Of a stretch of DNA of 23,152 nt, positions 2,655 to 23,152 are shown one piece after another; position 1 is the stretch's first letter; every line of letters starts with the position of its first letter. Position numbers and translations under genes: made by a program. Source of the stretch: a virus; the IMG/VR virus record IMGVR_UViG_3300036045_000508, positions 1 to 23,152 of that record; one strand, written 5' to 3'. Under the pieces are notes generated by a model. It was not told the DNA's origin, ran no database searches, and worked only from the letters and a program-made list of their open reading frames with translations.

Positions 2655-2860
2655 AGGCGATGCGTTTCCACCCGCCCGGCTTCGGCGGGGACCGGCGCAG
2701 CGTCGAGGAGGTGAAGCGCGACGGTTGGCACGAGCAGGGCGTGCTCGCCGTCACTGTCGACGACGACCGGCTGACCTGGCCCGAGCGCGAGCTCGTCCGC
2801 CAGCTCGGCGACAAGCTCTACGGCAGGCGTGCCGAGGCGGGCGAGGCGCAGCATGGCTGA
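2651..2860 (+). CDS. Small hypothetical protein of the resolvase operon
   Basis: A 69-residue protein, ATG overlapping the preceding stop by four bases (ATGA) and its own stop lying inside the start of the next gene. I do not recognise a family. The N-terminus is basic (MKAMRFHPPGFGGDRR). The second half, TWPERELVRQLGDKLYGRRAEAGE, predicts one long charged helix. There are no cysteines and no membrane segment. The precise end-to-end packing between two recognisable phage genes is the main evidence that it is translated. Confidence 0.6.
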   Translation: MKAMRFHPPGFGGDRRSVEEVKRDGWHEQGVLAVTVDDDRLTWPERELVRQLGDKLYGRRAEAGEAQHG

Positions 2861-3323: not shown

Positions 3324-3381
3324 CGGCCGGCCCGGCGCGCGAGCGTGCCGGAGCCGACGCGTCGCTCTGCCTGCAGGACGA

Positions 3382-5949: not shown

Positions 5950-5961
5950 GGCGGTCCGGCC

Positions 5962-8665: not shown

Positions 8666-9102
8666 GACTTCCGCCCTCGGCTGCCATCGCGATGCCGCAG
8701 CCCATGACATCGCATGCACAGCCAGATGACATCCAGCCGTCGGGAGTAGTCGGTGTGATGAGCCTCTAGCTCTGCCGACCGACCGCAGTCCGCGCACGCG
8801 TCAGGTCTCGGTAGGCGTCCTTTTTTCAGCGCGCGTCTGACGGCAGCATGCGCTCGGCTGCGGTCGCGATTCCGGACGCGCCACGCACGCTGTATGGCGG
8901 CGTGGGTTTCTGGATTGCGCTTCGCCCGGACGTAGGCGCGGCTGTACTCTCGATGGCAGTCCTTGCAGACAGCTGCTCGCCCGTCAGATTTGCACAGCGT
9001 ACGCCGAGGAAAGTCGAGCAGCCATCGTGGTGTTCGACACGTGCTGCACGTCTTCATTCGCGCGAAGTCCGGCGCGATGCTGTTCGGGTTCAGGTCGATC
9101 AT
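8662..9102 (-). CDS. HNH endonuclease with two zinc-binding cysteine sets
   Basis: A 146-residue nuclease. The ATG at 9102 follows a GAGG box by seven bases. The N-terminal half has CxxC pairs at 19/22 and 46/49 (TCSTC and VCKDC), a treble-clef-like knuckle also seen in recombination endonuclease VII-like proteins. A basic helical linker (about 50-98) follows. The C-terminal half is the HNH core: CADC (103/106), the His115-His116 pair in EAHHTDY, and CMRCHGLRH (129-137). It is joined by GTGA to the exonuclease gene. It could cleave branched or specific DNA during replication or packaging, or be a homing nuclease. The opposite-strand frames over it lack any motif. Confidence 0.88.
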   Translation of the reverse strand: MIDLNPNSIAPDFARMKTCSTCRTPRWLLDFPRRTLCKSDGRAAVCKDCHREYSRAYVRAKRNPETHAAIQRAWRVRNRDRSRAHAAVRRALKKGRLPRPDACADCGRSAELEAHHTDYSRRLDVIWLCMRCHGLRHRDGSRGRKS

Positions 9103-9112
9103 GGGAGGCACC

Positions 9113-9484
9113 TCAGAACGGCAGGGGGTCGTCGTAGGTCGTGCCGGTGCGTTCGAGCTGGGCTGCCTGGCGCTGCATGCTCTCAACGTAGCCGGTGACC
9201 GCCGCCTCGATCAGCTGGTCGATCTCCGCGGAGGTGCGGTCGAGGAACGGCGCCATCAAACCGAGCGCGGTCAGGGCTTCGGCGAAGGGCGGCCGGGCGT
9301 CCTTCAGCGCCTGGGTCTCGCGGGCGGTCTTGTCGATCATGGCGTCGGTCCTCGTGGCGAGCGCCGCGCCGATGTCCTGGCAGCGTCGCGAGCAGAAGCG
9401 GTGGTAGGGGAAGTCCGCGTGGCGGAGGCCGCGGCAGAAGCCGAAGCCGCGCGCCTCGCGGAGGCAGATCGCGCAGAGGGCTAT
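9113..9484 (-). CDS. DUF6511 protein with SSB-like C-terminal tip; start codon unclear
   Basis: The core is CAICLREARGFGF, FCSRRCQDIGA, MIDKTARETQALKDARPPFAEALTALGLM and IDQLIEAAVTGYVESMQRQ. It matches DUF6511, a prophage family, as I recall it. CxxC (residues 4/7) and Cys31/Cys35 make a probable zinc ribbon. The protein ends in TTYDDPLPF, very like the DDDIPF tip of bacterial SSB. The start is a problem: no ATG, GTG or TTG occurs in frame near the family start. The coordinate given is an ATA overlapping the TAG of the upstream gene (ATAG). The nearest in-frame ATG lies deep inside that upstream gene. Possible explanations are a non-canonical start, a frameshift fusion with the upstream gene, or a sequencing error. 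About 123 residues if the ATA is used. Confidence 0.72.
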   Translation of the reverse strand: MALCAICLREARGFGFCRGLRHADFPYHRFCSRRCQDIGAALATRTDAMIDKTARETQALKDARPPFAEALTALGLMAPFLDRTSAEIDQLIEAAVTGYVESMQRQAAQLERTGTTYDDPLPF

Positions 9485-9708
9485 CCCAGCAAGAGCCGGG
9501 TGAGGTCCGCGCTGTCCTCCGGCTGGGCCCGGATGCGCTCCGAGCCCATCACCACGAAGCGGCAGATCGCCGCGCTCGCCATCGCCTCGAGGTCCGCGAG
9601 CGTTAGCGACGACACGGGTGCTGCGAGCCTTCCACGGCCTTCGAGCCATCTGCCGATCTCCCTCGCCGCCTCGCGCGTGACGTGCGCCTGCCACTCGTCC
9701 GGGGTCAC
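9481..9708 (-). CDS. Small hypothetical protein upstream of DUF6511
   Basis: About 75 residues from the GTG at 9708; a CTG at 9720 that would overlap the preceding stop (CTGA) is the alternative. I recognise no family. The sequence VTPDEWQAHVTREAAREIGRWLEG is amphipathic and helical, followed by LTLADLEAMASAAICRFVVMGSERI, another two helices. No metal site and no membrane segment are seen. It lies between the SSB-like gene and DUF6511, and its stop overlaps the presumed start of DUF6511, so the two may be translationally coupled or even joined by frameshifting. Confidence 0.55.
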   Translation of the reverse strand: MTPDEWQAHVTREAAREIGRWLEGRGRLAAPVSSLTLADLEAMASAAICRFVVMGSERIRAQPEDSADLTRLLLG

Positions 9709-9716
9709 CTTAGCGC

Positions 9717-10433
9717 TCAGCCGTTGAGCCAGGCCGGCGTCGCCGCCGGCGCGGGCGTCGCGGCGGGCGCCGGAACTCCAGCCGGGGCGGGCGATGCCTG
9801 CGCGGCCCATGGGGTGCCGGCGGTGGCCGGAGCCGGCGTGGTCCAGGCCGGTGCGGTTACTGCTGCCTCGACCTTCCGCGGCTTGGCGTTGACCGGATCT
9901 GGCGGGACGATCTCGCCGCGCAGCACCGCGGCGTACTGCGGCTCGTCCGGCGTCACCACGTTGGCGAGCTTGTTGGCGTCCTTGTAGTTGGGGTTCGACG
10001 CCGGCTCGACCATGATGCGGGCGACGAAGACGATGCCGTCGAGCTGCCGCAGACCGTGGATGACCCGCTTCGACTTCGCCGCTGCGCTGTCGTCCTTCGG
10101 ATCGAGGCCGAGCGCGCTGTCGATCATCGCCCGGAAGGCGCTCTTGGCGATGTTCCAGCCCTTCGACTGGCCCTTCTCGTCGACCTTGCCGCCGGAGACG
10201 GTGAAGGTCTGCCAGAACTTCCGCCGGGCGAACGGGCCCTCGACCACGGTGAACTCGCAGTCGAGGAGCTTCACCTCGCTCGAGCCCGAGGCCTTGAGCA
10301 GACCGGCGTCGGTGGGCGTGGCGCCGTTGAGCCCCCCCGGGCGGATGGTCATCGCGACGCGGGCGAAGGTGCCGTCGGGGATCAGCTCGCCCACCGGCGC
10401 CATTTGCGGCTGGGCATCGTTGAGGTCGTACAT
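9717..10433 (-). CDS. Putative phage single-stranded DNA-binding protein
   Basis: A 238-residue protein with an AGGA box ahead of the ATG. Residues 1-150 are a compact, beta-rich domain with conserved-looking segments (GTFARVAMTIRPGG, LLDCEFTVVEGPFARRKFWQTFTVSG, KGWNIAKSAFRAMIDSALGL, IVFVARIMVEP). Segments of this kind are seen in phage proteins encoded beside Sak4-like ATPases. The last 55 residues are a Pro/Ala-rich, presumably disordered tail ending in AWLNG. An ordered OB-like core plus a flexible tail, beside a recombinase gene, argues for an SSB role. This rests mainly on context; I cannot confirm the fold. Unlike true SSB the tail has no acidic tip, but the DUF6511 protein two genes downstream does. 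Confidence 0.6.
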   Translation of the reverse strand: MYDLNDAQPQMAPVGELIPDGTFARVAMTIRPGGLNGATPTDAGLLKASGSSEVKLLDCEFTVVEGPFARRKFWQTFTVSGGKVDEKGQSKGWNIAKSAFRAMIDSALGLDPKDDSAAAKSKRVIHGLRQLDGIVFVARIMVEPASNPNYKDANKLANVVTPDEPQYAAVLRGEIVPPDPVNAKPRKVEAAVTAPAWTTPAPATAGTPWAAQASPAPAGVPAPAATPAPAATPAWLNG

Positions 10434-10455
10434 CGGGGTTTCCTGTTGCTCGGGG

Positions 10456-11304
10456 TCAGAGGGCGGACGCGGCGGCCGCCGCGTTGATCTTGGCGAGGAG
10501 CTGGCCGAGGTCGGGCGGCTCGGTCATGTCGAGGCGGCCGGAGCGGTCCTTGGCCGGCAGGCCGTAGGGGTTGCCCGCCCGACAGACGAGACGGCGCTCG
10601 GCCGACTTGTCGTCGAGGACGTAGCCGCCGTTGGCGTCGCGGCCGAAGAGATGCATCGACAGTACCTGGTCGACGATGCCGGGGAGCTCGCGCCCCGCCT
10701 TCGAGCCCTCCATCTGCGGCTGCCAGGTGACGGTGTTGAACTCGTCGGTCACCTTCTCGAGCACCCCGACGAAGATCACGGTCTTGCCGGGCGCGTGCTG
10801 CAGGTGCTTCAGCGCCTGGATCACCTCGCGGCCGAGCAGACCGTAGGCGCCGCGCACGTCGGGCTTGCCGCTGCGCTCCGAGATCGCCTCCGGCTGCTGC
10901 TTGGCGTAGAGCATCGCTTGCCGGGTCAGGTCGGTGATCGAGTCGACGAAGACGATCGACTTGGTGGCGAGGAACACTTCCAGCCCGCTGTCGCAATAGA
11001 CGGCGCGGACGTGCTCGAAGTGCGCGGTGCTGTACCAGGAGGCGGCATCCTGCGCCGGGTCGGCGCCGCCGATCAGCACCGCGAGGTCGCGGAAGTCGCC
11101 GAAGCTCCGAACCGGGATGCTGGCGCCGCGCCAGTCCTGCACCGACTTCATTCCGGCCTCGAGGTCGAGGCAGACGGTCTCGGCCTCGGGCAGCGACTTC
11201 AGGAGCGTGGTCTTGCCGATGCCGGGCGGGCCGAAGATCGCGAACGAGGTCTTGTTGGCGGCCGCCGACAGCCGTTCGTCGGCGCTGATGATGCGAAGGG
11301 CCAT
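10456..11304 (-). CDS. Sak4-like (AAA_24) RecA-fold recombination ATPase
   Basis: A 282-residue ATPase starting at an ATG six bases after GGGAG. Walker A is FGPPGIGKTTL (from residue 24, Lys31). Walker B is IVFVDSITD (Asp121), followed by a sensor strand TVIFVGVLEKVTDEF. The fold and length fit the AAA_24 phage nucleotide-binding family that includes Sak4, a RecA/Rad51-like single-strand annealing protein of phages. It would pair homologous single strands during element replication or repair, working with the SSB-like product of the next gene and the RecB-like exonuclease of the same operon. The protein ends in an alanine-rich helix (KINAAAAASAL). An alternative is a generic phage ATPase with no strand-annealing activity. 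Confidence 0.82.
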   Translation of the reverse strand: MALRIISADERLSAAANKTSFAIFGPPGIGKTTLLKSLPEAETVCLDLEAGMKSVQDWRGASIPVRSFGDFRDLAVLIGGADPAQDAASWYSTAHFEHVRAVYCDSGLEVFLATKSIVFVDSITDLTRQAMLYAKQQPEAISERSGKPDVRGAYGLLGREVIQALKHLQHAPGKTVIFVGVLEKVTDEFNTVTWQPQMEGSKAGRELPGIVDQVLSMHLFGRDANGGYVLDDKSAERRLVCRAGNPYGLPAKDRSGRLDMTEPPDLGQLLAKINAAAAASAL

Positions 11305-11413
11305 GCGGACTCCCGATGATGGCGGTGGGTTGATGGACGAGCGGCGGGGATTGACCGGGCGCCGAAGGAGGGCCTGCCCGACCTCGCGGTGCGGGCTGCC
11401 CCGCCGCCCGTGA

Positions 11414-11899
11414 TCAGCGCTCCTCGCGGAGCGACAGACGGAAGGTCGGCTTGCCCGGCTTCACCGTGCGGGCGGCCTCGAACCCCTCGCGGATCGAAGC
11501 CGGCCAGGCCGCGTACTTCCGCTCCGAGATCCGGAAACTCGTCTCGACATACTCGGCGGGATCGTCGCCGGCGGCACGGATGCGCGCGACCAAGCCGCCC
11601 AGCGCTGCCTGGTCCCATTCGACCTTCTTCGGCAGGTCGGCGATCACCGTGACCTCGCCGTCGTCGAGCCGGACCGTGCCGGAGTCCTTGCCCTCGGCCC
11701 GGCGCGCGGCTGCTGCGCGGTCGCCGTAGCGGAGGGCGATGGCGCCGTTCAACCAGTCGGCCAGATGCCGAGCGGCCTTTGCGGCGTCCTCGGCCTCCTC
11801 CTGCAGGACGGCAAGGAGATCGGCGGGGAGCGCCGCGATCTCGCCGATCGGCATCGTCGGCAGGTCGCCGAGGCGGGGGCGGTTGGCGGGGGCGGTCAC
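11414..11899 (-). CDS. Hypothetical phage protein (161 aa)
   Basis: A GTG at 11899 begins directly after the stop of the preceding gene. The 161-residue product has an acidic helical middle (LLAVLQEEAEDAAKAARHLADWL), a beta hairpin (GTVRLDDGEVTVIADLPKKVEWDQ) and a C-terminal segment typical of a conserved phage protein (YAAWPASIREGFEAARTVKPGK). I cannot name the family or a function. The combination precedes recombination ATPase genes in similar early operons as far as I recall, so a host-takeover or recombination accessory role is possible. No membrane segment, signal or metal cluster. Confidence 0.65.
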   Translation of the reverse strand: MTAPANRPRLGDLPTMPIGEIAALPADLLAVLQEEAEDAAKAARHLADWLNGAIALRYGDRAAAARRAEGKDSGTVRLDDGEVTVIADLPKKVEWDQAALGGLVARIRAAGDDPAEYVETSFRISERKYAAWPASIREGFEAARTVKPGKPTFRLSLREER

Positions 11900-12241
11900 T
11901 TACGCGGCCTCCTCGGTGATGACGTGGGAAGCGAAGTCGGGGAGCGCTCCCTTCCTGCGGGCCCGGGCGACGGCGTAATAGCTGTAGTCCTCGGGCCCGT
12001 GCCGCTGCTGGACGAGGTGGACAAGGCCGCGCTCGGCGAGGTCGTGGGCGCGGGCGGCAAGGAGCCCGAGCGCCGCGCGCGCCGGGCTGTCGGCGAAGCG
12101 GCCGAAGCCGGTGCGGTCGAGCGCGAGGTAGCCGCGGTGATACTCGAGGACGGCGCCGGGCGCGGCCTGCGCCACCCAGGCGCAGAGCTCGATCTCGCTG
12201 ACGCGGGGACGCGGAATCCGGATGACTGGCGCTTTCGCCAT
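11900..12241 (-). CDS. Hypothetical protein, first gene of the early operon
   Basis: A 113-residue basic protein with no recognised family. ISRIPRP-like N-terminal basics (IRIPRPRVSEIELCAWV) are followed by a probable helix-loop with GAVLEYHRGYLALDR, and a winged-helix-like stretch LAARAHDLAERGLVHLVQQRHGPEDYSYYAVARAR. That last segment (helix, then a Gly-containing turn and a strand rich in Tyr) looks like the end of a winged helix, so DNA binding is plausible. It is the first gene after the divergent control region, read from the candidate leftward promoter at 12361-12389. The long leader (about 110 bases) contains a dyad that could be an operator. Confidence 0.62.
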   Translation of the reverse strand: MAKAPVIRIPRPRVSEIELCAWVAQAAPGAVLEYHRGYLALDRTGFGRFADSPARAALGLLAARAHDLAERGLVHLVQQRHGPEDYSYYAVARARRKGALPDFASHVITEEAA

Positions 12242-12336
12242 GGGGGTGTGCTTTCTATTGCGGCTTCGGAACCGTTCAGGTCGCTGCAGGTGCTCCGCGC
12301 GCAGGCGTCTGGCGGTTTCCAGGGGAACTCTTGAGG

Positions 12337-12355
12337 TCGTGACGCGGTGTCATGA
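12337..12355. promoter_or_regulatory. Dyad TCGTGAC-N5-GTCATGA at the presumed leftward transcription start
   Basis: The two 7-base arms pair at six of seven positions around a 5-base centre. The element lies 6 bases downstream of the candidate leftward -10 box, so it would overlap the transcription start of the early operon. It also shares the GTGACNNGGTGTCA core with the iterons at 1462-1751, so one protein could conceivably read both. Function is inference. Confidence 0.4.
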
Positions 12356-12360
12356 GCGGC

Positions 12361-12389
12361 ATCATGCTGCGAATTTTTCGCACCCACAA
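12361..12389 (-). promoter_or_regulatory. Candidate leftward promoter of the early operon
   Basis: Read on the minus strand, TTGTGG (12389-12384) and CATGAT (12366-12361) are separated by exactly 17 bases. The match to -10 is four of six and to -35 three of six, so the call rests on spacing, position ahead of the leftward operon, and the perfect palindrome that fills the spacer. Confidence 0.5.
12368..12382. promoter_or_regulatory. Operator 1: perfect dyad TGCGAA-TTT-TTCGCA
   Basis: A perfect 15-bp inverted repeat with 6-bp arms and an AT-only centre. It occupies the spacer of the candidate leftward promoter, so a bound repressor would block RNA polymerase. The reverse-complementary sequence recurs at 13841-13855 in the matching position of a second promoter. 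The adjacent XRE gene is the obvious candidate for its ligand (inference). Confidence 0.65.
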
Positions 12390-12433
12390 GGGAGAAAATT
12401 GCTGCACTGGAACCTCGCGACAAACTCCGCTAG

Positions 12434-12799
12434 ATGAACGGGGACGCGGGCGACACGGGGCGGCGGGTGGATCACGACGAGAAGCAGGCGCTGGCCCGGT
12501 TCGCCGACATCTCGACCGACGCGACCGCCTGGCGGATGCGCGCTTCGCGGATGGCGCTCGGCCTGAACTCGAAGGAGATGGCCGAGCAGCTCAAGATGCC
12601 GACGACGAGCTACAGCGCCTATGAGAACGGCAAGGCGCACCCGAAGCTCGCGGCCATTCGCTACCTCTACCGCCAGTACGACATCAGCTTCGACTTCATC
12701 CTCTACGGCGATTTCCGGCGCCTGCCCGCCGACCTCCAGCAGCGGATCTTCGACGCCATGCTTTCGATGCAAAGCCCCAAGGGTCCGCCAGAAGCGTAA
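12434..12799 (+). CDS. XRE-family HTH transcriptional regulator, probable lysogeny repressor
   Basis: A 121-residue protein. Residues 31-90 form a Cro/CI-type helix-turn-helix: WRMRASRMALGLNSKEMAEQ, KMPTTSYSAYENGKAHPKLA and AIRYLYRQYDISFDFILYGD. That is five helices ending in the (F/W)xxxGD signature of the family. The 30-residue N-terminal arm is charged, and the C-terminal 25 residues are helical and may dimerise it. There is no peptidase or LexA-like domain, so release would need another signal. It is transcribed away from the early operon, with operator 1 in the shared 192-bp gap, the usual layout of an autoregulated phage repressor. The start has no strong Shine-Dalgarno; an internal ATG at residue 33 would remove the first helix, so the long form is preferred. 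Confidence 0.82.
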   Translation: MNGDAGDTGRRVDHDEKQALARFADISTDATAWRMRASRMALGLNSKEMAEQLKMPTTSYSAYENGKAHPKLAAIRYLYRQYDISFDFILYGDFRRLPADLQQRIFDAMLSMQSPKGPPEA

Positions 12800-12875
12800 G
12801 GCTCACCGGGAGCAGCCGGCGGATCATCAGCATGAGGCGGATCGCGGGACCGGCGTCAATCATGGTGCGGCACTA

Positions 12876-12902
12876 CACTCCCTGGTAATCGCAATGGGAG
12901 TG
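12876..12902. repeat. Inverted repeat CACTCCC-N13-GGGAGTG between the convergent regulators
   Basis: Perfect 7-bp arms around a 13-base loop, 77 bp after the XRE stop and about 105 bp beyond the LuxR stop. It could form a hairpin, but no T-run follows on either strand, so an intrinsic terminator is not well supported. An operator is the alternative. Confidence 0.45.
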
Positions 12903-12928
12903 AAATCTACCTATGGTTGCTTCGGCAA

Positions 12929-12984
12929 GATGGGAAATTCCGAAGATCGCGCGGCGCCGGCCGCCCGCGATGGGCAATCCCGAA
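12929..12984. repeat. Two near-identical 16-bp dyads 40 bp apart
   Basis: GATGGGAAATTCCGAA (12929-12944) and GATGGGCAATCCCGAA (12969-12984) match at 14 of 16 bases. Each has a GGG/CCC-type inner dyad. They lie in the 207-bp gap between the convergent XRE and LuxR genes, where no gene is visible. A spacing of 40 bp is close to four helical turns, which would place two bound proteins on one face (inference). Confidence 0.45.
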
Positions 12985-13006
12985 CCTGCAGGGACGGATC
13001 GAGCGC

Positions 13007-14016: not shown

Positions 14017-14187
14017 ATGTCGGCCGCTGAGCGCCGCGCCGAGGTCTGCGAGTTGCTCGCCCTCGGGCTGATCCGCCTCCGCGCCCGACAGTCAAGTCAA
14101 CAATCCGACCGTCGTGGAGATAGTTTGCTACACATCCCGCCCCGGCAGAGCGGTCATGCGAACCGTCCACGACGGAGAGTTGCATGA
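14017..14187 (+). CDS. Small conserved protein preceding DUF2924
   Basis: A 56-residue basic protein from the ATG at 14017: MSAAERRAEVCELLALGLIR, then LRARQSSQ and a Ser/Arg-rich tail. A short gene of this kind (AERRAEV.ELLALGL.RLRARKSS) habitually precedes the DUF2924 and recombinase genes in alphaproteobacterial elements, as far as I recall. Its stop overlaps the next start by ATGA, which supports translation. The open frame continues upstream to a TTG at 13834, but that stretch runs through the operator and promoter, so the ATG is chosen; a start between the two cannot be excluded (LHPER just ahead of the ATG looks conserved). Function unknown, perhaps a recombination accessory. Confidence 0.6.
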   Translation: MSAAERRAEVCELLALGLIRLRARQSSQQSDRRGDSLLHIPPRQSGHANRPRRRVA

Positions 14188-14630
14188 CCGACCCGATCCC
14201 CGCCCGCCTCGCCGCGCTGAAGACCATGGCGCTGCCGGACCTGAAGGCCGAGTGGCGCACGCTGTTCGGCGCCGAGCCGCCCGGGTACAACCGCCGCTAC
14301 CTCGAGAGTCGGCTCGCCTATCGCATACAGGAGTTCGCCTTCGGCGGGCTGAAGCCGGAGACGCGGAAGCGCCTCGAGGCGCTCGGGGAGAAGTTCGCCG
14401 ACCGCAACATCACCCGCCGCCGCATCCGCGACGACGTCATGCCGATCGCCGGCACCCGGCTGCTGCGCGAGTGGCAGGGGGTCGAGCACACCGTCACGGT
14501 CCTGACCGAGGGGTACGAGTGGCAGGGCCGGCCGTACCGGTCGCTGTCTGCGGTCGCGAGGGCGATCACCGGCACCCGCTGGAATGGGCTGGTGTTCTGG
14601 GGCTTGAAAAGCCAGAGGGCGGCATCGTGA
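14184..14630 (+). CDS. DUF2924 domain protein, recombinase accessory
   Basis: A 148-residue protein with the DUF2924 pattern: ALPDLKAEWRTLFGAEPPGY, then NRRYLESRLAYRIQEFAFGG, and a C-terminal beta-rich module VTVLTEGYEWQGRPYRSLSA followed by AITGTRWNGLVFWGL. The C-terminal part is the short GYEWxGxxYxSLSxxAxxITGxxWNGxxFFGL module found in many mobile-element proteins and thought to bind DNA. It overlaps the genes on both sides (ATGA before, GTGA after). DUF2924 genes are almost always beside a large serine recombinase, so a role in directing integration or excision is likely but not demonstrated. Confidence 0.85.
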   Translation: MTDPIPARLAALKTMALPDLKAEWRTLFGAEPPGYNRRYLESRLAYRIQEFAFGGLKPETRKRLEALGEKFADRNITRRRIRDDVMPIAGTRLLREWQGVEHTVTVLTEGYEWQGRPYRSLSAVARAITGTRWNGLVFWGLKSQRAAS

Positions 14631-15937
14631 GCCGGGGTCCCGAGGGCAAGCCGGTCCGCAAGCTCCGCTGCGCGGTCTACACCCGGAAGTCGACCGAGGA
14701 GGGCCTCGACAAGGAGTTTAACTCGCTGCAGGCCCAGCGCGAGGCCTGCGAGGCCTACATCGCCAGCCAACGGTCGGAAGGCTGGGCACTAGTCCGCGAC
14801 GCCTACGACGACGGCGGCTTCTCGGGCGGCACCTTGGAGCGCCCCGGGCTGCAGCAGCTCCTCGCCGACATCGAGGAGGGGCTGGTCGACGTCGTCGTGG
14901 TCTACAAGATCGACCGGCTGTCGCGCTCGCTCATGGACTTCTCGAAGCTGGTCGAGGTCTTCGACCGGGCCGGCGTCACCTTCGTCAGCGTGACGCAGAG
15001 CTTCAACACCACAACCTCAATGGGGCGGCTCACGTTGAATATCCTGCTCTCGTTCGCGCAATTCGAGCGCGAGGTCATCGCCGAGCGGGTGCGGGACAAG
15101 ATCCGGGCGTCGCGGCAGAAGGGTATGTGGATGGGTGGCAGCGTGCCGCTCGGCTACGTCGTGCAGGACCGAAAGCTGGTGGTTCACGAGCCCGATGCGA
15201 CGGTGGTGCGGTCGATGTTCGAGCGGTTCCTTCGTGTCGGCTCTGCCACGGTGCTGGCGCAGGAGCTGCGGGCGGAGGGCGTCCTGACCACCAAGGGCCG
15301 GCCGATCGACAAGGGCTACCTCTACAAGTGCCTCAGCAACCGGACCTACCTCGGGCTCGCGATTCACAAGGGCATCGCCTATCCCGGCGAGCACGCCCCG
15401 ATCATCGATGAGGAGCTCTGGGACAACGTCCACGCGATCCTCGCCGAGAATGCCCGCACCCGGTCGGCGCGCACCCGGGCGCAGACGCCGGCGTTACTGA
15501 AGGGGCTGATCTTCGGGCCGACGGGTGCGGCGATGTCGCCGACGCACACTCGGAAGGGCAACCGGCTCTACCGCTACTATGTCAGCCAGGATGTGCTGCA
15601 GCATGGGCGAGATGCCTGTCCGATCGGGCGGGTGCCGGCCGCGGAGATCGAGGCGGCGGTCATCGACCAGCTGCGCACAGTGTTCCGGCAGCCTGAGATC
15701 GTCGTCGGGATGTGGCTCGCGGCGCGGGCCGAGCAGGACAACGTGACCGAGGGCGAGGCGAGGGAGGCGCTCACGCAAATTGACCCGCTGTGGGACGAAC
15801 TGTTCCCGGCCGAGCAGGCGCGGATCGTGCAGCTCCTGGTCGAGCGAGTGGATGTCCATGGAGAGGGGGTCGACGTCCGCTTCCGCATGAACGGCATCGG
15901 CGCGCTTGCCCGCGAAGCCGCGAGGAGGGCCGCATGA
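14627..15937 (+). CDS. Large serine recombinase (resolvase/invertase superfamily integrase)
   Basis: A 436-residue recombinase beginning at a GTG that overlaps the DUF2924 stop. The catalytic domain (about 12-160) starts with LRCAVYTRKSTEEG, placing the nucleophile at Ser22. It continues with FNSLQAQREACEAYIA, DGGFSGGTLERPGLQQLL, VYKIDRLSRSLMDF and LTLNILLSFAQFEREVIAER. A recombinase domain follows (GSVPLGYVVQDRKLVVHEPD to PGEHAPIIDEELWDNVHAIL). A zinc ribbon region comes next: GLIFGPTGAAMSPTHTRKGN has lost the usual first Cys pair, and ACPIGRV keeps one. At 436 residues it is short for the class, without the long coiled coil. It presumably integrates and excises the element; attachment sites are not identifiable from one junction. 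Confidence 0.92.
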   Translation: MSRGPEGKPVRKLRCAVYTRKSTEEGLDKEFNSLQAQREACEAYIASQRSEGWALVRDAYDDGGFSGGTLERPGLQQLLADIEEGLVDVVVVYKIDRLSRSLMDFSKLVEVFDRAGVTFVSVTQSFNTTTSMGRLTLNILLSFAQFEREVIAERVRDKIRASRQKGMWMGGSVPLGYVVQDRKLVVHEPDATVVRSMFERFLRVGSATVLAQELRAEGVLTTKGRPIDKGYLYKCLSNRTYLGLAIHKGIAYPGEHAPIIDEELWDNVHAILAENARTRSARTRAQTPALLKGLIFGPTGAAMSPTHTRKGNRLYRYYVSQDVLQHGRDACPIGRVPAAEIEAAVIDQLRTVFRQPEIVVGMWLAARAEQDNVTEGEAREALTQIDPLWDELFPAEQARIVQLLVERVDVHGEGVDVRFRMNGIGALAREAARRAA

Positions 15938-16344: not shown

Positions 16345-16407
16345 ATCGCGCCTGCGGGGATGATGCATTGCCGAACGGCTCGGGTGCTTGCGCAGGCATG
16401 TGCACCG

Positions 16408-16436
16408 TTGCGTAAGAGCGTGCATAGAACTAGCAT
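16408..16436 (+). promoter_or_regulatory. Candidate promoter and direct-repeat operator of the methyltransferase operon
   Basis: TTGCGT (16408-16413) and TAGCAT (16431-16436) are 17 bases apart, with three of six and four of six matches to consensus. The direct repeat GCATA-N6-GCATA (16422-16437) overlaps the -10 box, and GCATATGC (16433-16440) is palindromic. The ribbon-helix-helix protein encoded 30 bp downstream could bind there and autoregulate (inference). Confidence 0.4.
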
Positions 16437-16465
16437 ATGCGTCGCCATGCAAGGGAGCCCACAAG

Positions 16466-16657
16466 ATGTCGGTAGCCCGCCGACTGAACACGACGATCGA
16501 CGTCCGTCTTGCAGAGCGACTTGATCGGGAGACCGACGGTCGGACACCGCGACTGCCGCGACGGTATGTCGTTGAGCTTGCTCTGCAACGCCTCTTCGAC
16601 GATGTCGATCGCGGCCAACTGGAACTGGATCTGACCCGGCATGACCGACATGAGTGA
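16466..16657 (+). CDS. Ribbon-helix-helix protein leading the methyltransferase operon
   Basis: A 63-residue protein starting at the ATG at 16466, after AAGGGAG at a slightly long distance. The sequence SVARRLNTTIDVRLAERLDR, then PRLPRRYVVELALQRLFDDV, is a strand-helix-helix of the Arc/CopG/MetJ class. The alternating Leu-Thr-Ile-Val at residues 7-13 would form the DNA-contacting ribbon. It overlaps the methyltransferase start by 8 or 17 bp. The tail is acidic (GQLELDLTRHD). By position it is likely to regulate the operon, a role equivalent to the controller proteins of restriction-modification systems, which are usually XRE-type. It could also be an antitoxin-like remnant, though no toxin is adjacent. 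Confidence 0.65.
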   Translation: MSVARRLNTTIDVRLAERLDRETDGRTPRLPRRYVVELALQRLFDDVDRGQLELDLTRHDRHE

Positions 16658-18098
16658 GAAGAGACATAGGGAGCGGTCGGTCATATCGCTTTTCAGCGGC
16701 GCAATGGGTCTCGACCTCGGGCTCGAAGCCGCGGGCCTGGACCTTTCCATGGCCTTGGAACGCTACAAGTTCCCCGTCGCCACCATCCGACACAACCGAC
16801 CCGACCTTCCGCTCATCGACCGTCCGATCGAGGAGGTATCCAGCGACGAGATCCTTGAAGCGGCTGGAGTCGAGCCCGGTGAGGCGTTCGCGGTCGTCGG
16901 TGGACCATCCTGTCAGGTCTTCAGCACGGCGGGTCAGCGCAAGTCCCTCGGCGACCCGCGGAGTACGATGTTTCGCCACTTCGTCCGGGTCATCAGGGAT
17001 ACACGGCCGGCCTTTTTCGTAATGGAGAACGTCCGTGGGCTGCTCTCAGCTGCTGTAAGGCATCGCCCGCTTAGCGAGCGCGGCCCAGGCTACCCGCCGT
17101 TGGGCGACGACGAACAACTCGGATCGGCCTTTGCCGTCGTGGCTAAGACCCTGCGAAAACTGGGATACTACTGCGTATTCGACGTGCTGAACGCGGCCGA
17201 TTTCGGGGTGCCGCAGACCCGGCAGCGCCTCGTCATACTCGGCAGCCGCGACGGGCGTCGGCTCCAGATGCCGCCCGCGACCCATTCTGCGGTCGGTGCC
17301 AACGGCCTTACGCGATGGCGCACATTGGGTGAGGCCCTGGAAGGCCTCAATGACGACCCGCCGGAGCACTATCGGTTCTGCCCTGCCAAAGAACGGTACC
17401 TCAGGCTGGTGCCCGAAGGGGGAAACTGGCGGGATCTGCCGCAAGACCTCCATCGCGAGGCACTTGGCAGCGCATACGACTCCTGGGGTGGCCGCTCCGG
17501 CTTCTTCCGGCGGCTTTCCTTCGACAACCCGAGTCCTGCGCTTACGACGCGTCCGGACAGCAAGGCGACATCACTCTGCCACCCGACGGAACTCCGGCCG
17601 CTCACCGTCGCGGAGTATGCGCGCATTCAGCAGTTCCCCGACAATTGGACCTTCCAGGGTCCGGTGCGGAAGAAGTACGAACAGGTAGGCAACGCCGTCC
17701 CGACCGGACTCGGCGCTGCCGTCGGGCGAGCGCTTCTGGCTGCCGCCCGTAGCCACGCTCGCCTCGAGCGGCTCGGTCGGTTCGAGTCCTTCAACCTTGA
17801 GCTCCTGGCGAAGCTGGCCCGCCGGCCCATAACGATTGTGAACCCGCCGCGTATGCGGAAGGACGATTCTGAGAACTCACTGGCCGATTGGTATGGTGAA
17901 GTGCCGAGGAGGCGCGAGGATGCCTTCGACTATGTGCCCCCCGAACTCCAGGAGCAGTTCCAGCGCTTCCTCAATGGCGGCAGGCGGGGCCGACCAGGCT
18001 CACCGGCAGCCCCTGTGCAACCTGCGAACGCGACGGCGCCGTGCCAGCCGGGCAACACTGATCCTGAAAGAGACGTACGGCTCGCCGCGGCTGAGTAA
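16641..18098 (+). CDS. dcm: DNA (cytosine-5-)-methyltransferase
   Basis: A 485-residue enzyme that transfers a methyl group from S-adenosylmethionine to C5 of cytosine in DNA. Motif I is VISLFSGAMGLDLGLEAAG (14-32). Motif IV is VVGGPSCQVFS with the nucleophile Cys91; the usual PPCQ reads PSCQ, a tolerated change. Motif VI is FFVMENVRG (Glu129), motif VIII is QTRQRLVILGSR, and motifs IX and X are EYARIQQFPDNWTF and GNAVPTGLGAAVGRALL (Asn351). The target recognition domain between VIII and IX (about 207-320) is normal in size. A C-terminal tail of 120 residues has no known domain. An ATG at 16650 is an equally good start. The recognition site cannot be read from sequence. Its 3' end overlaps the glycosylase gene. 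Confidence 0.93.
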   Translation: MTDMSEKRHRERSVISLFSGAMGLDLGLEAAGLDLSMALERYKFPVATIRHNRPDLPLIDRPIEEVSSDEILEAAGVEPGEAFAVVGGPSCQVFSTAGQRKSLGDPRSTMFRHFVRVIRDTRPAFFVMENVRGLLSAAVRHRPLSERGPGYPPLGDDEQLGSAFAVVAKTLRKLGYYCVFDVLNAADFGVPQTRQRLVILGSRDGRRLQMPPATHSAVGANGLTRWRTLGEALEGLNDDPPEHYRFCPAKERYLRLVPEGGNWRDLPQDLHREALGSAYDSWGGRSGFFRRLSFDNPSPALTTRPDSKATSLCHPTELRPLTVAEYARIQQFPDNWTFQGPVRKKYEQVGNAVPTGLGAAVGRALLAAARSHARLERLGRFESFNLELLAKLARRPITIVNPPRMRKDDSENSLADWYGEVPRRREDAFDYVPPELQEQFQRFLNGGRRGRPGSPAAPVQPANATAPCQPGNTDPERDVRLAAAE

Positions 18099-18696
18099 CA
18101 AGGACGACCCGCTTGACGAGCTCGTCTTCATCCTACTGTCTCAGATGACGACGGGGCCTAGCTACGAGCGCGTATACGAACGTCTGAAGGCTGCCCTGCC
18201 GGACTGGCAACTGCTCCTGGAGACCCCTCTCTCGGTCATCTCCGAGCTTATCGCAGACGCAGGCCTTGTGGCCCAACGAACAAACCGCTTGGTCACGATC
18301 GCACAGACACTGGCTGGGGACTTCGGGACGGTCTCGCTCACACTTCTTACCGAAATGTCCGATCAAGACGCTTTCGCGTACCTGACCACTCTGCCCGGCG
18401 TCGGCCCCAAGTCGGCCAAGTGTGTCATGATGTACAGCCTGGGCAGAGAGGTTCTGCCCGTAGACACGCATACTGCCAGGCTCGCATTCCGGCTCGGCCT
18501 CGTAGCAAGCGCAAGTGCCCCGGCCATCGACAAGGAACTAGAACAGATCGTACCGCCGCCCCTGCGTTACGACTTCCACGTGAATGCCGTTGCGCATGGG
18601 CGCGTCGTGTGCCGCGCCGTCAGGCCACGCTGCGGCGAGTGCGCTCTGCGTCCTGCTTGCCCTTCCGGACAGAGAGCCCCAGCACCAGCACGCTGA
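17974..18696 (+). CDS. Endonuclease III-like HhH-GPD DNA glycosylase/AP lyase
   Basis: A 240-residue protein if started at the ATG at 17974, which overlaps the methyltransferase end by 125 bp; a CTG start near 18048 would shorten the overlap. The helix-hairpin-helix is LPGVGPKSAKCVM with catalytic Lys146. The catalytic Asp164 is in LPVDTHTARLAFRLGL. The iron-sulphur cluster is Cys213-x6-Cys220-x2-Cys223-x5-Cys229. All spacings (Lys to Asp 18, Lys to first Cys 67, cluster 6-2-5) equal those of E. coli Nth as I know it. The lysine predicts a bifunctional glycosylase/lyase. Beside a cytosine methyltransferase, it may repair T:G mismatches left by 5mC deamination (the role of Vsr, or of Mig.MthI in the MthTI system), or cut DNA with a wrong methylation state. 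Confidence 0.88.
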   Translation: MAAGGADQAHRQPLCNLRTRRRRASRATLILKETYGSPRLSNKDDPLDELVFILLSQMTTGPSYERVYERLKAALPDWQLLLETPLSVISELIADAGLVAQRTNRLVTIAQTLAGDFGTVSLTLLTEMSDQDAFAYLTTLPGVGPKSAKCVMMYSLGREVLPVDTHTARLAFRLGLVASASAPAIDKELEQIVPPPLRYDFHVNAVAHGRVVCRAVRPRCGECALRPACPSGQRAPAPAR

Positions 18697-19084
18697 CCAC
18701 CGTCCCGACAGTCGCAGGGGCGCTCCAGACATGTCCTGCGGTATCGTGACCGACCCGCAGCCAGTCCAGCCGCGCCCGCCATGCGGCGTCCAAGCCGTTC
18801 ACGTGAGCGACCGCAAGTACCGCGAGTCCTCCGGTCCGTTCCACAGGCAGCAGCCATTCCAGGTAACGGTCTAGGCGCGTCACGCTGCGCATGTCGGACG
18901 GTCCTTCGCTGTGCTTCGCCTCTCCGACGAAGAGCCCTCGCCCGGTGCTCGGGCGACGGAGAACATCCGGGCGTTCGCCGTCAAGGAGTGCGACCTCCAT
19001 CCGGAAGCCCGACATGTCGGCCAGCGTCCGCAGGAGCGACCGCCGCGCCTCGTGCGTCAGGCTGGGGACGCGTTCGGGTCTCAT
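18620..19084 (-). CDS. Small PD-(D/E)XK nuclease-like protein with C-terminal hydrophobic helix
   Basis: A 154-residue protein, ATG at 19084, 21 bp after the helicase stop. After an N-terminal helix (HEARRSLLRTLADMSGFRME), the sequence ALLDGERPDVLRRPSTGRGL, then FVGEAKHSEGPSD, holds the PD-(D/E)XK layout: Asp40 after Pro39, and Glu55-Ala-Lys57 on the next strand. A helix with Arg and Tyr follows (RLDRYLEWLLP), as in restriction-like nucleases. Residues about 122-142 (SAPATVGTVVSVLVLGLSV) are hydrophobic and could be a membrane anchor or buried helix; a basic tail follows. It is last in the leftward operon. Its 3' end overlaps that of the glycosylase gene by 77 bp in convergent orientation. 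Nuclease activity is inferred from motifs only. Confidence 0.7.
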   Translation of the reverse strand: MRPERVPSLTHEARRSLLRTLADMSGFRMEVALLDGERPDVLRRPSTGRGLFVGEAKHSEGPSDMRSVTRLDRYLEWLLPVERTGGLAVLAVAHVNGLDAAWRARLDWLRVGHDTAGHVWSAPATVGTVVSVLVLGLSVRKGKQDAERTRRSVA

Positions 19085-19105
19085 GGGTCCGACGGTCCGG
19101 GTGGT

Positions 19106-20887
19106 TCACAACGCGTCGGCCACGCCAAGCAACGCCGCCGCCTCCCGCACATCGGCTAGGAACGTCTCGCGGGTCAACGGTGTCGTGACCCTGTCCCCGA
19201 GCAGATCCTGCGCGGCGCGCTCCTTCCCGACGAGCCGGTTGTACTCGACCGTCTCGAGCGAACCATCACAGAGCATCACGACATACTCGACGTCGCGCTC
19301 CTGCCCTCGCCGGTGAATTCTGTCCAAGCTCTGCAGGTAGTGGGCCGCCTGGTTCGACAGGGACTCGTAGATCGCCACCCTCGCCCTGTGCAGAGTGAGA
19401 CCGGCGCCGGCCGCCGCAGGGTTGGCGACGAAGACCATCGTTTCGTCGTCTTCTTGGAACCTGCGGACTGCCTCGCGGCGGGCGTCGACATCGTCCACAA
19501 TTCCATCGTACCGGACGGTACCGTAGCGTGCGTAACGCTCGACGATCGCGGTCACGGATGCGGTGTAGAAGGACCAGACAATCACCTTCTCGCGGTCACG
19601 GCCCACGATGCGCTCCAGCAACGAGTCCATCGCCGCCAATTTCGCGGGCGTCTCCCGGTAGCTGGGATCAACGGCCGCCGGGTTGGAGCAGACTTGGAGC
19701 AGCGCCGCCCGCCGCGCCAGGAAGCTGGTACGTTCCCGCGCGAACCGCGCCTCGTCGCTAGCCTCAAGGTCGTGGACCAGATCCTCGAGTGTTGCTCGGT
19801 ACAGGCGGGCCTGCTCCGCGGCCATCGGGAGCAGCACGCGCTGAAATCTCTTGATCGGCAGCTCCGGCAGAACCTCCGCTTTTAGGTGCCTCACGAATAG
19901 GCCCCGCTCCTCGATCGCCTCCTGGATCACGGGCGCCGCCTCAGCGCGGTCATTCGGCACGTCGACGCCATCAAAACAGAAGCCGAAGTCCACGAGGTTG
20001 AACTGCTGGACGAGATCGCCCGGCGCGTTCGGGGCAGGCGTGCCGCAGAGCACATAGGCGCGCCCCGCCCACTCGCGCAGCCGCCGCAGTGCCCGCGTCC
20101 GTTTGGCGTCCATGGACTTAATGAAGAAGGACTCGTCGATGGCGAGCACGGTGCGCCCTGGACGTGCGCGCATGAGTGAGCGAAGCGCTCCTTCCATCGA
20201 AACGGCCGTCTCGAAGTTAGTGACGAACACATCGGCACCGGCCGTCAGCCGCCGTCTCTTCTCCCTCACGGGACCGCTGAGCACCACGGTCCGGTACAGG
20301 TCGCCGCGGAACCGCGTGAGGTCCTTTGGCCACTCCCCGACCATACTCTTCGGCGCCACGATGATCGCCTGATCGGCTTCGTCCCGCTCGACCAAGAGAT
20401 CCAGGGCGAAGATGAAGGTGACGGTTTTGCCGGCCCCCTGTTCGTCGAAGACACACAGCCCGGGGCTGTCCGGCAAGGTCATCGCCGCGACGTTAACTAT
20501 CTGGTGTCGGTCGAGGACGCCTAGGCCGTCACTGTCGGCGATCAGCCGCGCCGCGAAGTCTGGCCCGCCGGTCTTGATCTGCTGCAACCTCGAGAACACG
20601 CTCGGATGATGCGCCGCCACCCCGAGGCGGTTGTCCACGTACCGTTGCGCCTCGGGTGTCCATCGCAACTCAATGTCGTCCTGTAGCAGCCTGAGGGCGG
20701 CAGTCGCCGACGCCGGAACCCGGAGCCCCTCCGTGACGCGGGTCACGGCCTGACCAGCGTCGCCGAGACGGGTCCGGATGAGCTTAAGCAGTGCCAGCGC
20801 TTCGCCCGGCGCCGGAACAAGGAAGAGAGCGTCCAGCGACTCCGGCACGCGCACCTCCACGCGGTGAAGGCGGCAGTCAGGCAGCAT
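19106..20887 (-). CDS. SNF2-type superfamily 2 DNA translocase/helicase
   Basis: A 593-residue motor. Walker A is FDEQGAGKTVTFI (Lys154), motif Ia IIVAPKSMVGEWPKD, motif Ib VFVTNFE, motif II LAIDESFFIK (Asp251-Glu252, DESF instead of DEAH), motif III YVLCGTPAPNAPGDL. In the second lobe, IVWSFYTASVTAIVERYA, VFVANPAAAGAGLTLHRA and HYLQSLDRIHRRGQ give motifs IV to VI. This is the SNF2 pattern, in which ATP hydrolysis moves the protein along double-stranded DNA. The N-terminal 120 residues are unassigned and may bind partners. Its start overlaps the ParB-like stop by 11 bp, so the two are co-translated. Helicases of this group occur in DISARM and other defence systems, which supports a defence role by analogy. 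Confidence 0.9.
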   Translation of the reverse strand: MLPDCRLHRVEVRVPESLDALFLVPAPGEALALLKLIRTRLGDAGQAVTRVTEGLRVPASATAALRLLQDDIELRWTPEAQRYVDNRLGVAAHHPSVFSRLQQIKTGGPDFAARLIADSDGLGVLDRHQIVNVAAMTLPDSPGLCVFDEQGAGKTVTFIFALDLLVERDEADQAIIVAPKSMVGEWPKDLTRFRGDLYRTVVLSGPVREKRRRLTAGADVFVTNFETAVSMEGALRSLMRARPGRTVLAIDESFFIKSMDAKRTRALRRLREWAGRAYVLCGTPAPNAPGDLVQQFNLVDFGFCFDGVDVPNDRAEAAPVIQEAIEERGLFVRHLKAEVLPELPIKRFQRVLLPMAAEQARLYRATLEDLVHDLEASDEARFARERTSFLARRAALLQVCSNPAAVDPSYRETPAKLAAMDSLLERIVGRDREKVIVWSFYTASVTAIVERYARYGTVRYDGIVDDVDARREAVRRFQEDDETMVFVANPAAAGAGLTLHRARVAIYESLSNQAAHYLQSLDRIHRRGQERDVEYVVMLCDGSLETVEYNRLVGKERAAQDLLGDRVTTPLTRETFLADVREAAALLGVADAL

Positions 20888-22466
20888 CGTCGCCTACCTC
20901 GGCAGCAGGCGGCTCCAAATGCCCCTCCACCAGTTTCAGGGCATCCGCTAGTCCGCGAAGGTTCTCCTGGTTGACGGCCCCGGGTTCGTCCGGATCAAAG
21001 ACCTTCACGGGCAAGTTAAGGAACCAATCCGTGAAGGAGCGTATCCGCACATTCACTCCGGTCTGACGTTGTTCGACTCGAGCCGCGCGAGCAACTCCGA
21101 TGGCATCATCGACGTCACCTTGTGCTACCTCAACATCGGCTTCGTTCCGCGCCTTTCGCAAGAGCTCCAGAGCGTCCTCATTCTGGGCGACATACCTCAG
21201 ATCCCTGATCTGCCGCCAGTTCCTGAACTTGTCCTCAAACAGAAGATCGAAGACCAAGTGCTTGAAGCTGTCCTCTTGATTAAGAGACCAGTTCACTCCC
21301 CCGGGGCTCTTACCCTTGTTGAGCTCATCGAAATATTGGAACTTGTCCGACGCCCGATGTTTGGTCGCATACGGATCCTTTGAACGCTCGACGACCTGAT
21401 ATTCTTCGAACTCCTGGGCAATCTTGACCATGTTGATGTAGCGCGAGACCTCATCGACCGAGAGGGCGAACTGGCGTGCTATCTCCTTCCTGATCTCTCT
21501 TAAGCGCGCGGCCGTCGGGTTGGCGCGCGGCTCCAGTGTGACCAGCGTCTCGTACTGTTCGTAGACCTTCTGTGCCTTCACGTACTCGGGCCAGTCCTGT
21601 TTGAAGTCGGGCTCGAAGTTCAGCGAAACGATCACTGCCTCGCGCTCCTGGTCCGTCGCGTGCGCCGTCAGCTGCCACACCTTGATCCATTCCGCTCGCC
21701 TCCTCTCGTCGGCCGAGAACTCCTGGTCCGCGCTGTTCAAGATGTAGTAGCAGGCCGTCACACGTCTGTTGCCGTCGAGCAGGGTGCCGTCTATGTCAAC
21801 TATCGGCGGCTTCCGGACACCGTTCACTGCGATGCTCTTCGCGAGGGCGCGGATAGCGAACTGGTCTGTGCCTTCGATCCCCGGCAGCGCCATCTCCCCC
21901 TGCATTATAGCCAGAAGCTCATCCGCATTTGGGCGCCGCCCGTACTTCTGTTCGAACTGGTTCAGGTGAATGTCGAGCCGCTTGTTCTCGTCCCAAAGGC
22001 GGATGTCACGAGTCCGGACAAAGCCCTCAATGACAGCCACCGGGCGCTCATGGAAGACCGGGCTCGGTCTCACGGCTTGAGGCTGGATCCCGTCAAAGGC
22101 CTGCAACTCCATGCGGCTGACCGAGGCGGGTTCGGTCCCGGGCCTCTCGTCGTCATCGGTGCGGCCCTCCACTGCCGGCTCCCCCTGCGCCGCAAGCCTG
22201 GCCCTCAGCGTCTCCATACGAGCGATGAGCGCTTCAGCGTCTCGATCGAGGATTGCGATGGTCCGCGGGTCGCCGCGGCGCTCGGCACCCGACCGCATCA
22301 CACGAATCACGCGCTCGAGGAGCGCCACGGTCTCACGCTGTTCCAGCGGCTGCACAAGGCCTTCCCGGATGATCTCGCCGACCGTCTCACCGAGGTCGGT
22401 GGCCATCGCCTCGGCGAGGTCGAGGAGTCGCGTTAGGTCCGCCCTGACATCGTTCATGATCACCAT
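20877..22466 (-). CDS. ParB/Srx-fold protein with long N-terminal helical region
   Basis: A 529-residue protein. The ATG at 22466 follows GGAGAAG and overlaps the sigma gene stop; an ATG at 22457 is also possible. Residues 1-110 are helical and coiled-coil-like (LLERVIRVMRSGAERRGDPR, RMETLRARLAAQG). A ParB-type domain follows: FAIRALAKSIAVNGVRKPPI and DGTLLDGNRRVTACYYI (Gly232-Asn-Arg-Arg235), which is the place of the GERR box of ParB CTPases and Srx-like enzymes. Residues about 318-350 look like a ParB HTH (REIRKEIARQFALSVDEVSR). The last 180 residues are unassigned. The protein could be a CTP/ATP-dependent DNA-binding switch or a nuclease. A chromosome-partition role is unlikely because no parA is present. 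Confidence 0.78.
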   Translation of the reverse strand: MVIMNDVRADLTRLLDLAEAMATDLGETVGEIIREGLVQPLEQRETVALLERVIRVMRSGAERRGDPRTIAILDRDAEALIARMETLRARLAAQGEPAVEGRTDDDERPGTEPASVSRMELQAFDGIQPQAVRPSPVFHERPVAVIEGFVRTRDIRLWDENKRLDIHLNQFEQKYGRRPNADELLAIMQGEMALPGIEGTDQFAIRALAKSIAVNGVRKPPIVDIDGTLLDGNRRVTACYYILNSADQEFSADERRRAEWIKVWQLTAHATDQEREAVIVSLNFEPDFKQDWPEYVKAQKVYEQYETLVTLEPRANPTAARLREIRKEIARQFALSVDEVSRYINMVKIAQEFEEYQVVERSKDPYATKHRASDKFQYFDELNKGKSPGGVNWSLNQEDSFKHLVFDLLFEDKFRNWRQIRDLRYVAQNEDALELLRKARNEADVEVAQGDVDDAIGVARAARVEQRQTGVNVRIRSFTDWFLNLPVKVFDPDEPGAVNQENLRGLADALKLVEGHLEPPAAEVGDDAA

Positions 22467-23152
22467 ATCTCTTCTTCTCCTTCCTCGCTCGTCTGTGTCT
22501 CCGGCAGCTCCGCCGGCATCTCTATTCCCGCGCGCTCAGCCTCCCGCCGCAGTCGCTGCAGTCCGCGCGAGACGAGCTTCCGGGCTGATCCTTCGCTGAT
22601 GCCGAGAGCGTCGGCGATCTCGGAGGCCGGCAGATCTGGGAGCCCCTGCGCGGCAGCGTCGATCACCAGTTCCATCACGTCGACGACCTGGCCGTCCCCA
22701 ATTCGTGGCAATAGCTCCCGCGCCAGGCGGATCGCCTCTGCTCGCCGTAAGTCGTCTAACTCTTCACGTTCTCTCCGCGCGCATTCGGTTTCGGCATCTG
22801 GCGCCGCCAGCCCGTCGATCTCCGTCTCATCGCCGGCGCGTACAGCATACTCCGCCCGCCAACGGTCCTGTGCCGTGTTGGCCGCCGTCTTCCACAGCCA
22901 CGCCCCGAGGTTCCGCACGACCCTTCCGTCGGAGAGAGCCGCAAATGCGAAGTCGACGGTCGTCGCCACACAGTCGTCGATCTCGGTGGGTGGTAACGCC
23001 GGCCACTGACGCTGTAGCCGTCTTACCAACCCGTATAGGAACCCGCTGGCCGTCAGGGCCTCGATCATCTGGGTGGGTTCCCCCCTACTAGCAGCCGCTG
23101 TCGCTGCCTGCAGGAGTTCCTCCGGGCTCTTCCGTTCCGGTCCCTCGTCCAC
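22460..23152 (-). CDS. ECF-like RNA polymerase sigma factor (5' end at window edge)
   Basis: At least 230 residues; the last codon of the window is GTG, so it may be the start or the frame may continue outside. A sigma-2-like region (FLYGLVRRLQRQWPALPPTE, then GRVVRNLGAWLWKTAANTAQ and DRWR) and a sigma-4-like region (LPDLPASEIADALGISEGSA and RKLVSRGLQRLRREAE) are in the right order. They are separated by an acidic helix (CARREREELDDLRR), as in extracytoplasmic-function sigma factors. No anti-sigma gene follows; instead the stop overlaps the ParB-like start. A sigma factor leading a helicase and nuclease operon is unusual. It could turn on the operon, or the sigma fold could be reused as a DNA sensor (inference). 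Confidence 0.82.
   Translation of the reverse strand: MDEGPERKSPEELLQAATAAASRGEPTQMIEALTASGFLYGLVRRLQRQWPALPPTEIDDCVATTVDFAFAALSDGRVVRNLGAWLWKTAANTAQDRWRAEYAVRAGDETEIDGLAAPDAETECARREREELDDLRRAEAIRLARELLPRIGDGQVVDVMELVIDAAAQGLPDLPASEIADALGISEGSARKLVSRGLQRLRREAERAGIEMPAELPETQTSEEGEEEIW

Follow-up and report, generated by a model that had tools for sequence, protein, structure and literature searches.

A lineage of endonuclease III-like glycosylases linked to C5 methyltransferases of defence systems and predicted to stand in for Vsr

Introduction

Methylated cytosine deaminates to thymine, which leaves a T:G mispair that is beyond ordinary uracil repair. To our knowledge Vsr is the one linked remedy widely known in bacteria for this mutational cost of cytosine methylation, with Mig.Mth as a special case of thermophiles. 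The locus described here lies on a 23 kb fragment of a virus record, the whole of which is referred to as the window, and it raises the question of what an endonuclease III-like DNA glycosylase is doing beside a C5 cytosine methyltransferase, in the position where, according to the initial annotation, Vsr normally stands. According to passages of two reports, R-M operons of the MORC type frequently have Vsr as a neighbour, and the word 'glycosylase' is absent from the main texts of both (PMC2292703, PMC8011034).

The glycosylase and its neighbours

The glycosylase gene is found on the plus strand at 17974..18696, its frame uninterrupted to the stop at 18694-18696, and encodes 240 aa if the ATG at 17974 is used, with an alternative earlier ATG at 17893. 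With the former start it overlaps by 125 nt the C5 cytosine methyltransferase gene (16641..18098, plus strand; PF00145 with E 2.2e-51, TIGR00675 over its cut-off), in which the motifs GGPSCQ, ENV and QTRQR were read directly, and the overlap claimed in the initial annotation is thereby confirmed.

Pfam, NCBIfam, the residues, the tree and a structure model mark the product as an HhH-GPD (endonuclease III-like) DNA glycosylase and a predicted Vsr-equivalent. It is a member of the HhH-GPD superfamily both by fold and by its match to PF00730, at 42.8 bits over a gathering cut-off of 26.2. The catalytic Lys and Asp and the four-Cys cluster of Nth are all present, with Lys146 in GVGPKSA, Asp164 in PVDTH and Cys213, 220, 223 and 229 forming a 6-2-5 cluster, so that what had been claimed of these residues holds on reading and on alignment. 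When the AlphaFold2 model (pLDDT 85.7) was compared with Foldseek the top matches were EndoIII-1 and EndoIII-3 of D. radiodurans, followed by B. stearothermophilus Nth, Mig.Mth and E. coli Nth, the 50 best matches being HhH enzymes.

Its likeness to any one named family is partial. The closest named NCBI family is NF053634 (DR2438 type), which is described as monofunctional and whose model member also has the Lys, but the window glycosylase scores 130.4 bits against a curated cut-off of 400. D. radiodurans EndoIII-1, the closest solved structure, falls outside the methyltransferase-linked clade described below. E. coli Nth (TIGR01083) shares the Lys, Asp and Cys pattern, but here the score, 86.9 bits, falls short of the cut-off of 211.7 and the two proteins lie in separate clades. 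The sole PADLOC match is to one profile, V.MthTI-looking, at 36 bits; its label of 'type II nicking endonuclease' was rejected as an identity because a canonical host Nth (L020) outscores the window glycosylase with 74 bits, which makes the label unspecific.

Upstream of the methyltransferase is a small ORF of 89 aa (16388..16657, plus strand) that gives no Pfam match and is conserved 5' of the methyltransferase in loci L002 and L199. On the minus strand the glycosylase is followed by a small protein (18620..19084) whose PD-(D/E)XK-like motif, PDVLR...GLFVGEAK, was read by eye and gives no Pfam or PADLOC match; the motif is kept in L002 and L017, and L003 shows its GEAK half. Beyond it lie an SNF2-type helicase or translocase (19106..20887, minus strand; PF00176 8.6e-19; ZorD/DpdE/DrmD-like in PADLOC), a ParB-like protein (20877..22466, minus strand) that is labelled from reading and has no library match over cut-off, and a sigma-70-like/HTH protein (22460..23152, minus strand; PF04545, 27.3 bits), the last two being conserved across the module. 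The set on the minus strand at 18620-23152 recurs together in L002 and in L017, and L003, L187 and L199 have part of it; it is a candidate defence module for which no PADLOC name was found. A large serine recombinase adjoins the module (14114..15937, plus strand; PF00239, PF07508, PF13408), with its resolvase domain starting near 14672. Across 1-13000 the window has phage-like replication genes by eye, among them a primase-like ORF of 855 aa (3382-5949) and a helicase-like ORF (5962-7380).

All seven genes of the module recur in a gammaproteobacterial MAG (L002), with 53-68% identity in the stretches that match, and next to an ORF that reads by eye as integrase-like. In the virus contig L017 the module genes are present in a different order. 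The 5.3 kb fragment L003 has the methyltransferase and glycosylase, an HNH_2 endonuclease (2003-3019), SNF2 and the PD-(D/E)XK-like gene, the last of which is separated from the glycosylase by the inserted HNH_2 gene. L187 has the methyltransferase, glycosylase, a sigma-like ORF, the ParB-like gene and SNF2; in L199 the methyltransferase is accompanied by SNF2 and by the ParB-like and sigma-like genes. Plasmids queried with the ParB-like protein gave no match. Because the L199 module has no glycosylase, the enzyme is a frequent but not an obligatory member of the SNF2 module.

A single lineage linked to C5 methyltransferases

Genome contigs searched solely by protein similarity yielded 7 confirmed relatives of the glycosylase, and a C5 methyltransferase adjoins or lies near the gene in every one, these methyltransferases being 26-68% identical to that of the window in matched pieces. 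As the relatives were found by protein similarity alone, the adjacency of the two genes is more than chance. Profile searches, which covered 235, 398, 227, 345, 347 and 95 genomes, extended the sample; among the matches listed, 146 loci were fetched, made up of 6 re-finds (L002-L007), 7 new members linked to a C5 methyltransferase (L187-L189, L192, L194-L196) and 133 that are unlinked. In all 15 full-length members of the clade a C5 methyltransferase adjoins the glycosylase or lies within about 2 kb, 'linked' here taking in one intervening gene in L004, L188 and L196. Among the matches listed, none of the 133 related genes outside the clade has a C5 methyltransferase in its fetched flanks, which span roughly 1.5 kb, or less where a contig ends, and five of them (L146, L147, L149, L173, L114) gave no C5 methyltransferase match at up to about 9 kb.

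The linkage follows phylogeny. In a tree of 173 rows that took in all 133 unlinked genes, the linked proteins of full length, 15 in number, share one branch into which none of the others falls (SH-aLRT 99). In a 42-row tree, which like an initial tree before it is a hand-chosen sample, the linked glycosylases form one clade with support of 98/100 and a single branch in 99% of 200 bootstrap trees, a bootstrap that is not fully settled; some long branches meet in this tree. L008, cut at its contig end, was kept out of the trees, and L113, labelled 'other' in that initial tree, is a duplicate of L196. The window glycosylase falls outside the canonical Nth clade on the trees. Hosts of the linked clade belong to several bacterial phyla and include one Asgard archaeon. 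The catalytic Lys and Asp are kept in 15/15 full-length linked homologues, and the fourth Cys is missing in L017.

Searches of viral contigs gave no relative with the glycosylase protein and one with the profile, and plasmid searches with the glycosylases of L005, L006 and L007 gave, among the matches listed, proteins annotated as or resembling ordinary Nths. Annotated nth genes are found on IncC and IncF NDM plasmids (L184, L185) in a resistance region near sul1; nth genes on NDM/IncC plasmids were rejected as relatives of interest, since in the two regions read they stand among resistance genes with no annotated C5 methyltransferase. The clade is undescribed in the open-access literature searched, and REBASE may hold such genes under V. 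names. As far as the searches go, the lineage and its distribution are new, but the kind is already known from Mig.Mth.

It might be assumed that such a gene is a stray host Nth, but this is ruled out by the separate clade and by the other Nth genes of the hosts. Every host of L002-L008 has HhH-GPD genes besides the linked one (3-7 matches per genome, a count that takes in the linked gene where it scored), and at least one protein from each of the genomes G001-G007 joins E. coli Nth on the tree. The initial annotation had named a genome in which this is the sole Nth copy as an argument against a special role, and that situation is found in none of the 7 close-relative hosts, the window itself being a virus fragment. 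The same genomes bear on the suggestion that the enzyme repairs oxidised products of 5mC (thymine glycol opposite G, 5hmC or 5fC derivatives), or oxidised pyrimidines generally, rather than plain T:G. This suggestion has in its favour Lys146 and Asp164 and nearest relatives of EndoIII types, and it would also account for the pairing with a C5 methyltransferase if the lesion derives from 5mC; a general Nth role would, however, be redundant because canonical Nth is present in 7/7 host genomes, and since Vsr acts on T:G, its exchange with the glycosylase speaks for T:G. It is accordingly judged unlikely.

Systems with Vsr and systems with the glycosylase

The 16 loci of the Lys family, that is the 15 of full length and L008, which is cut before the Lys, were typed by PADLOC and Pfam and prove to be of several kinds. 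The SNF2 module is found in the window, L002, L003, L017 and L187. Type II R-M with one family of REase is found in L005 (E 2e-90) and L189 (E 1e-108), and DISARM in L007 (DrmA at 1309 bits, with DrmB and DrmC) and L194 (DrmA, E 3e-199). L006 is Druantia, with DruE4 at 1767 bits and a weak DruF, L192 is Mza, with MzaC (E 2e-146), MzaE (E 2e-71) and DUF4420, and L195 is a Z1-domain system. L188 is a GHKL and Mrr-helicase system to which L196 is related, and in both a protein family of 518-542 aa (33% identical) lies between methyltransferase and glycosylase (L188 7182-8735, L196 7450-9075); it has no Pfam match over cut-off and no PADLOC match, and is possibly a restriction enzyme. L004 combines an N6/N4 methyltransferase, a circularly permuted C5 methyltransferase and a NOV_C protein, the permuted gene (11475-12695) having its N-terminal motifs after the C-terminal ones. 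Besides the glycosylase itself, the SNF2, type II, DISARM, Druantia and Mza loci share just one component, the C5 methyltransferase.

This variety also bears on the second possibility raised in the initial annotation, a glycosylase-based restriction in which the enzyme excises a methylated or unmethylated base; it was weighed here as an effector that excises its target base when this is unmethylated and then nicks. Restriction by a glycosylase does exist, as passages on R.PabI describe (PMC10273834), and L187 has a module without a recognised PD-(D/E)XK gene. R.PabI is like the present enzyme in that base excision is tied to a methyltransferase, but it has the half-pipe fold, which is not that of the glycosylase, and it acts in restriction, not repair. 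Most loci have another effector, such as the type II REase of L005 and L189, which makes glycosylase-based restriction less likely, and the L199 module is without the glycosylase, and without the PD-(D/E)XK gene too. The possibility is therefore disfavoured and is considered improbable.

Related systems with Vsr were found for two of these kinds. The Paracoccus plasmid p12374 (L203) has Vsr, a C5 methyltransferase and an REase; L005 and L189 have homologues of this methyltransferase and REase (44-56% identity; in L005 54% for the methyltransferase and 56% for the REase) together with the glycosylase. Similarly, the Agrobacterium plasmid pDG3-1d (L200) has Vsr, a C5 methyltransferase, a GHKL ATPase, Z1, a DUF4420 PD-(D/E)XK protein and AIPR, and the Mza locus L192 has homologues of the last four of these components at 30-39% identity, together with the glycosylase. 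In type II and Mza loci, then, the family has a C5 methyltransferase neighbour where homologous systems carry Vsr, and these two comparisons, L203 with L189 and L005 and L200 with L192, support the earlier view that the glycosylase stands where Vsr normally does. A search with a Vsr query gave no match in any of 17 glycosylase loci (the 16 of the Lys family and the Thermus locus L186), and in four other loci it matched only L200, the source of the query.

The exchange of Vsr for the glycosylase is seen in two system types only. For the SNF2 module of the window no Vsr-bearing counterpart was found, a Cryobacterium plasmid has a type II methyltransferase-REase pair with neither Vsr nor glycosylase annotated, and on six plasmids with relatives of Druantia and DISARM helicases neither was annotated inside the system; in one locus among these plasmid relatives, L221, Vsr is in a neighbouring cluster. 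Vsr is present elsewhere in 7 of the 14 host genomes searched, never on the glycosylase contig as judged from the contig numbers or coordinates listed, and the hosts are therefore not Vsr-deficient in general. Likeness to Vsr (PF03852) is one of gene position beside a C5 methyltransferase in homologous systems; fold and chemistry are other, and PF03852 is absent among the Pfam matches of the window glycosylase.

What the enzyme may remove

The glycosylase is probably a dedicated Vsr-equivalent of the adjacent C5 methyltransferase, one that would remove T, or other lesions derived from 5mC, opposite G. This reading builds on what the sequences show: the protein belongs to a known family and keeps its catalytic residues intact, the linked members make up a single clade that is constantly paired with C5 methyltransferases, and Vsr and the glycosylase are exchanged for one another. 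That the substrate is T:G, that an AP-lyase step follows and that the methylated sequence is in any way preferred we infer from these observations. The enzyme would flip out and excise the thymine opposite G, with uracil or oxidised 5mC products opposite G as possible further substrates, Lys146 may next act as an AP-lyase and break the strand where the base is missing, and host repair would restore C:G, the net effect being Vsr's job done by another fold and chemistry. How strong this AP-lyase would be is uncertain as well, given that NF053634, the closest family with a name, is called monofunctional.

The nearest known parallel is Mig.Mth (V.MthTI, PDB 1kea), an HhH-GPD Fe-S glycosylase that is likewise encoded with a C5 methyltransferase, and which we take to lie beside it in the MthTI plasmid context. 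It differs in having a catalytic Tyr where the linked clade has Lys, and it forms a separate branch outside the Nth/EndoIII group. An orthologue of this Tyr type, annotated as hypothetical, is present in Thermus thermophilus pTthSNM6-6d (L186 4258-4965), where 29 nt of it overlap a C5 methyltransferase gene and a tyrosine recombinase lies alongside. The contrast drawn in the initial annotation between Tyr in the MthTI enzyme and Lys here is correct, Lys being found in 15/15 clade members and Tyr in L186 and 1kea.

Against T:G as the substrate stands the Lys, typical of enzymes that attack oxidised pyrimidines, where the HhH enzyme known to act on T:G has Tyr; nor is a thymine pocket evident from the glycosylase sequence alone. 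Passages of PMC2714593 describe Mig.Mth as a T/G enzyme and Mig.MthI as inactivated by Y126S. With Tyr needed there and Lys present here, thymine must be recognised another way, if at all, and recognition of thymine by a Lys enzyme is the chief weakness of the T:G reading. A different substrate has to be weighed at this point, namely modified phage bases such as 5hmC or its derivatives, the removal of which would widen defence to modified phages. Similarity to plant ROS1, a 5mC glycosylase of the ROS1/DEMETER kind, is seen by sequence (E 2e-13) and by structure, the trees holding no ROS1 sequence. Such a role would, however, explain neither why the glycosylase pairs exclusively with C5 methyltransferases nor why it exchanges with Vsr, and an enzyme that also excised 5mC would attack the host's own marks; it is regarded as very improbable.

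For a Vsr-equivalent it is conceivable, although doubtful, that methyltransferase and glycosylase make up a portable mark-and-mend cassette, with lyase-type T:G enzymes tuned to read the context of their own methylase. Distances among the methyltransferases and among the glycosylases correlate with r 0.79 over 14 loci, a value reached in 0/20,000 permutations, and with r 0.36, reached in 465/20,000 permutations, when four near relatives are removed; L004, with its permuted methyltransferase, was left out. Position 57, in the loop 57-58 that presumably adjoins the flipped base (placed on the assumption that Gln41 of E. coli Nth is the intercalating residue), shows eight residue types among 15 clade members, in comparison with Ala in 14/14 housekeeping Nth and Gln in 40/44 related EndoIII types; position 58 varies also in the EndoIII-type group. 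The correlation and the diversity at position 57 are compatible with tuning to methylation context, and no more.

Implications

The glycosylase is a component without a counterpart in the matched PADLOC models of DISARM, Druantia and Mza. If its predicted role is true, it would be a third, independent remedy for the cost of cytosine methylation, present in bacteria and an Asgard archaeon across no fewer than 5 kinds of defence system, and lyase-type T:G enzymes may become available as tools. What is carried on the window is apparently a mobile methylation defence cassette with its own base-excision repair enzyme, mending mutations caused by 5mC, and it would follow that C5-based defence generally needs to pay the mutational cost of methylation.
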